From Candidatus Hydrogenedentota bacterium (GTDB taxonomy: Bacteria > UBA8481 > J006), in assembly GCA_003697085.1 (NCBI GenBank), contig RFFU01000084.1:54635-118634 (forward strand): a stretch of 64,000 nt of DNA, written 5' to 3'. Position 1 is the first letter of the stretch. Each line of letters starts with the position of its first letter. The translations under genes and the position numbers were made by a program. Shown piece after piece: positions 9,832-64,000 of the stretch. Below the pieces are notes generated by a model, which was given only the letters and a program-made list of their open reading frames with translations, did not search any database and was not told where the DNA came from.

Positions 9832-10020
9832 CTGGCGAAAAATAGACACCTTTTGCCGAATCGTGTTGGTCCCTTACTGGGCGAAACCCCGCAAATGATC
9901 GGGGCGGCCGAAAGGTGGTCCTCTACGAACCCGTTTTTCCAGCCAAGATGCCGGCACTCCCAGGAATGCCTGTTTACCTAAAGTTGATCCTGCCCACAGT
10001 TTGCCATGCACCCGTTCTCG
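9832..10020 (+). repeat. dispersed ~185-bp element, copy A (second copy at 59131-59320)
   Basis: Aligned by eye with copy B: CCGAATCGTGT, GCGAAACCCCGC..GGGGCGGCCGAAAGGTG.TCCTC, AAGATGCC, CTCCCAGGAATGCCT.TTTACCTAAA.TTGA.CCTGCCCACA.TTTGCCATGCAC. Confidence 0.85.
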
Positions 10021-23497: not shown

Positions 23498-23745
23498 TAC
23501 CCCTACCGTTCCTTGCTACGTTCCAACCACGTTTCGAACTGCTTGCCCAGGAGATTTGGAATCCATGAATACTCGGATCCCTCTTCTCTTTCAATTCAAT
23601 AAATTTCTATACCTTTCCTTCCCCTTATTCAACCGCGGGAAAAGAGGGAATCCAACCTGTGGATATCCAGTGGATAAAAGGTGTCATTCTTCCATTTTGT
23701 CAATTTCGGCGCAGAAATGCGGAGGTAGTGGTCGGCGATATCGAA

Positions 23746-37178: not shown

Positions 37179-37235
37179 CGGTAGCGGCGAAGCCGGGCGA
37201 TCTGTCCCGCGGGTTGGAGAAGCCGTGCTCAAATC

Positions 37236-37350
37236 CTGCAGGCAGGTTGCCTGCACTCCCAGGTTTCGCGGCAGATTGGAGAGTCTACGCTCCATCCGCC
37301 AGCCGCAGATTGGAGAGTCTGCGCTCCACTGCAGGTAGGAAGCCTGCGCA
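37236..37350. repeat. cluster of hairpin repeat units (GCAG..CTGCGCTCC family)
   Basis: GCAGGCAGGTTGCCTGCACTCCCAGG, GCAGATTGGAGAGTCTACGCTCC, GCAGATTGGAGAGTCTGCGCTCC, GCAGGTAGGAAGCCTGCGCACCC in succession. Confidence 0.85.
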
Positions 37351-37427
37351 CCCGGGTGGGAGAACGAGCGCTCCCTTCCTAGCTCAACGTGGAGGCCGGG
37401 ATGGAACGATCCGTCTCTATCGGAGTT

Positions 37428-44157: not shown

Positions 44158-44575
44158 TTGGGGGGATTCCGCGATCTCCTTCCGGGAATTTTCGGAATGG
44201 CAAGAGGGGGTGGGGAATTCCTCGCGGACCTGCCCCGAGCGCCGCCGAGGAATCCCCTTCGCGCGGTATCCCGAGGGAAGGGCAAGGGCAAGGGCAAGAA
44301 AAAGGGAATGGGGAAGGGAAACGAAAAAGGAGACAGGAAGCGCTTCCTGGGAACGCACGCCTGCCCGGAGGAAGTCCCGCAAGGAGCGCCGTTCCTGGGA
44401 GCGCAGGCATCATGCCTGCAAGGATGGGGCGCGGGTTCTCCAACCTGCGGGACGGATCGCCGTCCGCGTTGTCATTCCGAGCGCCAGCGAGGAATCCCCT
44501 TCGCGCGGTATCCCGCCGTGGGCCGTGTGCCAGCAGGATGCTCGCGCTCCTAGGGATTGCCGCAGACAAGAGTGT
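44158..44575. repeat. modular intergenic repeat cluster, including inverted copies of a 'CATTCCGAGCG..GCGAGGAATCCCC' module
   Basis: GGGAGCGCAGGCATCATGCCTGCAAGG; GGCGCGGGTTCTCCAACCTGCGGGACGGATCG; GTTGTCATTCCGAGCGCCAGCGAGGAATCCCCTTCGCGCGGTATCCCGCCGTGG; inverted version at 44158-44200. Confidence 0.85.
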
Positions 44576-44735
44576 CTGCGCTCCACATCTCCTGTATCCT
44601 TTTCCCTTTTCCCTTCGGCCCTTTTTCCTTTTGACTTTTGCCTTTTGATTTCTTCCTTTTGACTTTTGCTTTTCTCATTTTCCGTGTCTTCCGTGGTTCT
44701 CTTCCCTTCCGCGTGCTCCGCGGTCCCTTGTAAGG
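44561..44735. repeat. composite repeat: hairpin + CCTTTTG-type polypyrimidine tract, left copy
   Basis: GCAGACAAGAGTGTCTGCGCTCCACATCTCCTGTATCCTTTTCCCTTTTCCC...CTTTTGACTTTTGCCTTTTGATTT...TTTTCCGTGTCTTCCGTGGTT. Confidence 0.85.
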
Positions 44736-47558: not shown

Positions 47559-47655
47559 TCAGAGTCCACGGTATTTATCTCGCAACCTCCCGTTCCTCCG
47601 CCCGTTTTTCGGTATTTCGTGTTTTGCTTCCTCGCGTTCTTCGGCACGATTTTTC

Positions 47656-47790
47656 GCAGACAAGAGTGTCCGCGCCCTACATCTCCCGTATCCTGTTTCC
47701 TTTTCCCTTTTGCCTTTTGCCTTTTGCCTTTTGATTTTTGCTTTTTTCCTTTTGCCTTTCTCTTTTTTCCGTGTGTTCAGTGGATTTTCT
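47656..47790. repeat. composite repeat: hairpin + CCTTTTG-type polypyrimidine tract, right copy
   Basis: CGCAGACAAGAGTGTCCGCGCCCTACATCTCCCGTATCCTGTTTCCTTTTCCCTTTTGCCTTTTGCCTTTTGCCTTTTGATTTTTGC...TTTTCCGTGTGTTCAGTGG. Confidence 0.85.
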
Positions 47791-50791: not shown

Positions 50792-50845
50792 CGCAGGTTG
50801 GAGAACCTGCGCTCCACTTTCGGCAGGCAGGCCTGCGTTCCCAGG
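50792..50845. repeat. two adjacent hairpin repeat units (GCAG..CTGCGCTCC family)
   Basis: CGCAGGTTGGAGAACCTGCGCTCC and GCAGGCAGGCCTGCGTTCCCAGG. Confidence 0.85.
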
Positions 50846-59130: not shown

Positions 59131-59320
59131 GGTGCGTGGCGACAAATGAGCACTTTTTCCGAATCGTGTCAGGCCACTCTTGAGCGAAACCCCGCGGGGC
59201 GGCCGAAAGGTGATCCTCCGCGAATCCGTTTTTGCAGGCAAGATGCCTATGCTCCCAGGAATGCCTATTTACCTAAATTTGACCCTGCCCACAATTTGCC
59301 ATGCACACTCATCGTCCCGG
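59131..59320 (+). repeat. dispersed ~185-bp element, copy B
   Basis: See copy A (9832-10020); same strand orientation. Confidence 0.85.
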
Positions 59321-63754: not shown

Positions 63755-64000
63755 CCCTGGGAACGCAGGCATCCTTGCCGGCAGAAACGGAGCGCGGGTT
63801 CTCCAACCTGCGGAGGGCGAATCGTACCTTCGCAGACAAGAGTGTCCGCGTTCCATAATATGCCGAAAGTGGAGCGCGGGTTCTCCAAACTGCGGAGAGC
63901 GGATCGGCGCCCGCGTTGTCATTCCGAGCCCCTCGCATTCGCTCGGGACAGGCTCCGCGAGGAATCCCCGCCGCAGGGTATCCCGCCGTGGTGCCAATAC
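63755..64000. repeat. modular intergenic repeat cluster, same modules as 44.4-44.6 kb; may continue past the right edge
   Basis: CTGGGAACGCAGGCATCCTTGCCGGCAG; GGAGCGCGGGTTCTCCAACCTGCGGA (twice, one variant); CGCAGACAAGAGTGTCCGCGTTCC; CGTTGTCATTCCGAGCCCC..GCGAGGAATCCCCGCCGCAGGGTATCCCGCCGTGG. Confidence 0.85.

Follow-up and report, generated by a model that had tools for sequence, protein, structure and literature searches.

GGAG-tagged, REP/BIME-like hairpins in a Candidatus Hydrogenedentota genome, and a RAYT clade linked to their relatives in other bacteria

The short hairpins dispersed through the genome of this Candidatus Hydrogenedentota bacterium are, at a probability of about 0.8, REP/BIME-like elements that carry a GGAG tag and were spread by a RAYT transposase that is now lost or unassembled. 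Among the functions listed by an earlier note on the window (the whole 64,000-nucleotide stretch of DNA analysed here), the REP/BIME-like option is the best supported, by the tag, the arrays, the intergenic bias and the link to RAYTs. The host genome is a 3.2 Mb draft in 145 contigs (94.6% complete); copy statistics were obtained from genome-wide pattern searches and from 460 kb of long contigs taken as a sample, in which a simple codon score served to call genes, so that individual assignments may be wrong.

Tag, stem, and subfamilies

The flank GCTCC, initially read as a constant 3′ sequence, corresponds on the other strand to a 5′ tag, GGAG, at the foot of the hairpin, an arrangement like that of REP elements. 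The GGAG tag and the outer stem are common to four subfamilies, which differ in their inner stems by compensatory changes; on the opposite strand, family A reads TGGAG-CGCAGGTT-ctcc-AACCTGCG, family B CCTGGGAGC-GCAGGCA-tct-TGCCTGC, family C TGGAG-CGCAGACT-ctcc-AGTCTGCG, and family D TGGAG-CGCAGACA-ctct-TGTCTGCG. The one-sided tag (TGGAG or CCTGGGAG) also appears when copies are gathered by the hairpin alone, with the tag left unused. GGAG is the tag in all four subfamilies, instead of the GTAG tag or its GYRG variants that characterize the GTAG superfamily; its per-position conservation is mostly 75–94%, with minima of 59% in family A and 62% in family B. The flank is not constant: the T of CTCC is replaced by C in about one third of the family A copies. 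The tested units, treated as single-stranded DNA, fold better than nearly all of their shuffled counterparts. Pairing between the family A loop (GGAG) and the flank (CTCC) was considered and rejected as a general feature, since many copies have the tag altered to CCCC with the loop unchanged, and since the family B loop differs.

Six head-to-tail units occupy positions 37208–37375 of the window, with a UPF0047 gene on one side and a glycosyltransferase gene on the other. All are on the plus strand: a degenerate family A hairpin (CGCGGGTTGGAGAAGCCGTGCTCAA; 37208–37232), the family B hairpin TGCAGGCAGGTTGCCTGCACTCCCAGG (37237–37263), a tandem pair of family C hairpins of the GCAGATT variant (37270–37294 and 37304–37328, the latter with a single-stranded DNA fold z of −2.5), a degenerate family B hairpin (37330–37356), and a very degenerate family A-like hairpin with six mismatches (37351–37375) that overlaps the tag of the preceding unit. 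The members of the tandem pair, previously said to differ by one stem base, differ at 2 of 25 positions; a local duplication gains support, as both carry GCAGATT, a rare variant within the GCAGACT subfamily.

Further plus-strand units of family B are found at 9938–9964 and 44528–44554 (both degenerate) and at 59233–59259; those of family D at 44561–44585 (CGCAGACAAGAGTGTCTGCGCTCCA), 47655–47679 (degenerate) and 63831–63855; and an exact family A consensus, with a single-stranded DNA fold z of −3.6, at 50792–50816. On the minus strand, a family B hairpin (44394–44420) pairs with a family A hairpin (44425–44449) at the standard 4-nt spacer, and a degenerate family B hairpin (63756–63782) lies near family A hairpins at 63788–63812 and 63870–63894. 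The hairpins quoted as examples in the earlier note were all recovered at their positions; the one at 44403, to which a 3′ flank had been assigned, is the minus-strand unit at 44394–44420, and its flank is therefore 5′ on the plus strand. The window had no match among the curated RNA families of Rfam, and no plasmid match was found.

Copy number, placement, and arrays

Genome-wide searches that allowed up to three mismatches retrieved 100 copies of the family A pattern GCAGGTTGGAGAACCTGCGCTCC and 116 copies of the family B pattern GCAGGCAAGATGCCTGCGCTCCCAGG; the same patterns read backwards, used as controls, retrieved none, and the hairpins are indeed dispersed. Of the 67 copies in the 460 kb sample, 59 were intergenic, compared to 13% of the bases (p ~5e-43); the remaining 8 of 67 overlap predicted genes, so that the original statement that the units sit in intergenic gaps describes a strong tendency and not a rule. 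All types of gap are occupied, at 1.25 copies per kb between divergent and 1.29 between convergent genes; an excess at transcript 3′ ends was not seen among the gap types of this sample, and a role as transcript 3′ ends, one of the options raised at the outset, is not favoured.

Neighbouring units keep characteristic distances. Family A followed by family B is separated by 4–5 nt in 25 of 32 pairs, and family B followed by family B by about 24 nt; the spacers of inverted pairs are mostly 16–18 nt when the tags point outward and mostly 14 nt when they point inward. These fixed-spacer mosaics of subfamilies have the arrangement that defines BIMEs, and resemble in this respect the BIMEs and REPINs of Escherichia and Pseudomonas; REPINs are inverted pairs, whereas many units here run in the same direction, although inverted pairs occur as well. 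A second dispersed repeat, GAGGAATCCCC ... CTCGGAATGACA (for example at L010 and L053), is present at about 15 copies per 460 kb and frequently adjoins hairpin arrays.

Stem covariation and decay

Between subfamilies A, C and D, inner stem pairs are altered on both sides; pooled, these families contain 133 Watson-Crick double changes compared to 65 in shuffles, which ignore the relatedness among copies. Within subfamilies the signal is modest (21 double changes vs. 7.2, a number reached in 0 of 2000 shuffles of the same kind) and comes mainly from families A and B, and most deviating pair cells (176 of 205) are changed on one side only, many of them with loss of the pair. The one-sided changes represent the decay of individual copies; overall, a few sources whose stems were intact seem to have given rise to many copies now in decay. 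The complementarity of the stems had been taken as a sign of selection on structure; complementary change is genuine between subfamilies and modest within them. Structure is kept in the multiplying copies while most copies decay, a pattern unlike selection on each copy; discrete subfamilies with compensatory stem differences follow from multiplication of a few source sequences.

One-sided transitions in families A, C and D show a bias toward G-T in the tag strand (62 vs. 27, p 0.0003), and those in family B do not (13 vs. 14). As an indicator of which strand is structured, this wobble asymmetry is suggestive at best, being absent in family B and based on counts that are inflated by shared ancestry.

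Related hairpins and a linked RAYT clade in other genomes

The family B 22-mer GCNGGCAAGATGCCNGCGCTCC is present in 5 of 382 other genomes, whose kinship to the window's host is no closer than the same domain; by our estimate, about 0.003 matches would be expected by chance in all searched genomes. The A-type pattern, with 15 fixed bases, is absent from 39 other genomes that include one relative of the same order. One genome (G230) carries 23 copies of the 22-mer on a single contig; among the matches listed, nearly all of its copies have G-C at the place where A-T prevails in the window's genome, and many are arranged as inverted pairs with their tags outward, CCTGGGAGCGCGGGCTTCCAGCCCGC-spacer-GCGGGCAAGATGCCCGCGCTCCCAGG. 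The B-type 22-mer was also noted on four IMG/VR contigs (L136–L139), two of which (L136 and L137) have identical flanks.

The earlier note had suggested a search for a linked RAYT or transposase; such a gene is missing from the window's assembly but accompanies the closest hairpins in other genomes. One RAYT clade occurs in 20 of 383 genomes, and four of the five genomes with the family B 22-mer carry it (Fisher p 2.7e-5). Outward-tagged hairpins, with GGAG or GTAG, lie on both sides of the RAYT at 12 of 26 loci of this clade, compared to 0 of 300 random windows drawn from the window's genome, a control of differing base composition. Relatives of the hairpins flank RAYT genes at L179, L186, L201 and other loci. 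At L186 (genome G179), a free-standing RAYT is enclosed by the upstream hairpin GGGAGC-GCAGGCG-tcc-CGCCTGC and the downstream hairpin GGGAGC-GCAGGCG-tct-CGCCTGC, which have GGGAGCGCAGGC in common with family B; the protein matches the solved Escherichia coli TnpA-REP structure 4er8 (E 1.6e-10). The hairpin at L201, GGAGC-GCAGACA-tcca-TGTCTGC, shares its tag and stem with family D.

No RAYT of this hairpin-linked clade was found in the assembly of the window's genome, which is 94.6% complete. L018, the only Y1 protein in this assembly, shares 25% identity with the clade query; its match to the REP_Tyr_transpos model falls below the cut-off, and its ends are AAGGTGTCATTCTT inverted repeats instead of GGAG hairpins. 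As the only resident Y1 protein is distant and has other ends, the hairpins are orphans in this assembly, without a cognate RAYT; REPs that outlive their RAYT have been described (PMC3686654). The organization of L018 is that of the TIRYTs/TIRtrons (PMC3733652), with ends unrelated to the hairpins. Its terminal repeat, AAAAGGTGTCATTCTTCC, occurs in the window around position 23680 and four more times in the 460 kb sample.

RAYTs inside restriction and anti-phage genes

Several RAYTs of the clade sit in frame within long open frames: in DUF1156/HmaB methylases (L179 and L180, both in G230; L181 in G358; L182 in G047), in the R subunit (HsdR) of a type I restriction system (L225 in G159), in type IIG enzymes at two different sites (L226 in G131; L227 in G053), and, as read by eye, in an SNF2-like helicase (L223 in G017). 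In L180, L181 and L182, the matches to the HmaB profiles pick up again at nearly the same position (454–468). Tagged hairpins lie close to the RAYT segment in the majority of the scanned loci of this kind. At a further locus (L224 in G361), the RAYT segment interrupts a DUF1156-like methylase with a frame shift at the junction. A literature search found no earlier account of RAYTs in frame inside defence genes.

Mode of spread and alternative explanations

In the preferred reading, the repeats are non-autonomous single-stranded DNA hairpins of ~25 nt whose 5′ foot carries GGAG on the complement of the strand first described. A RAYT transposase of the Y1 (HUH) type would bind the hairpin once the tag strand becomes single-stranded, take the tag as a guide, cut nearby, and re-insert the hairpin or an entire array elsewhere; insertions that miss genes would persist, and a few source sequences would multiply before their copies decay. 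In studied systems, RAYTs recognize the tagged strand in single-stranded form and are assisted by the tag in choosing where to cut (PMC8266576); by analogy, the GGAG tag may act likewise in recognition and cut-site guidance.

Maintenance as sites for a chromosome-organizing or supercoiling protein (gyrase, IHF or similar), as reported for enterobacterial REPs (literature summarized in PMC6006769), would fit the arrays and the intergenic position; yet mobility accounts better for the decay of copies and for their presence in distant genomes as well, and such a role is improbable as the primary one, although it could be secondary to mobility. RNA hairpins at transcript ends, as terminators or as mRNA-stabilizing 3′ structures selected copy by copy, would likewise account for intergenic placement, for the stability of the hairpins and for some compensatory change. 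They would not account for the equal density in divergent and convergent gaps, an orientation relative to transcription without significant bias (13 vs. 8), the absence of a T run after the hairpins, or the mostly one-sided and often pair-breaking changes within families, and this role appears a shade less probable still. Least probable is mobilization of the hairpins in trans by the TIR-flanked, RAYT-like L018; it is the sole Y1 transposase found in the assembly, but its own ends are unrelated inverted repeats with their own copies, and it is distant from the hairpin-linked RAYT clade.

Relation to known REP systems and significance

The hairpins share with REPs of the GTAG superfamily, including GTAG-20 of Opitutus terrae (Di Nocera 2013, PMC3733652), a 20–40 bp palindrome with a tag at one end, high copy number, intergenic location, single, dimeric and clustered copies, and several families per genome. 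They are short, imperfect, dispersed, mostly extragenic palindromes with a one-sided 5′ tag and with relatives that flank RAYTs; their tag is GGAG instead of GTAG or GTGG, head-to-tail units of two hairpins with 4–5 nt spacers are frequent, and a cognate, repeat-flanked RAYT is absent from the same assembly. Since the hairpins lack, in this analysis, both the tag and the resident RAYT by which the GTAG superfamily is defined, they are not filed as plain members. Pseudomonas REPs (GTGGGAGC-stem; PMC3686654) read much like family B (CTGGGAGC-stem). The RAYT clade with the nearest hairpins resembles RAYT/TnpA-REP proteins (subclasses 2.x, PMC6006769; E. coli structure 4er8) in its match to 4er8 and in its flanking by outward-tagged hairpins, and departs from them in its GGAG tags and in the members located in frame inside restriction and defence genes.

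The abundance of REPs is usually linked to a cognate RAYT in the same genome and approximately tracks host phylogeny (PMC3686654). A more tentative and rather doubtful extension holds that the GGAG hairpins belong to a REP/RAYT lineage moving between distant bacterial lineages, that its RAYT is carried along in frame within mobile genes for restriction and anti-phage defence (HmaB, HsdR, type IIG), and that the hairpins in the window's genome are what remains of an earlier visit.

This kind of hairpin is already known; what is new is the GGAG tag, the layout, and the sharing between distant genomes. A 22-base core of hairpin plus tag is common to genomes of different families that are related no more closely than by domain, and a cognate RAYT clade can be named from these genomes, with several members in frame inside defence genes; together, these make horizontal REP/RAYT spread directly testable, and they provide a concrete substrate and enzyme for assaying the GGAG guide.
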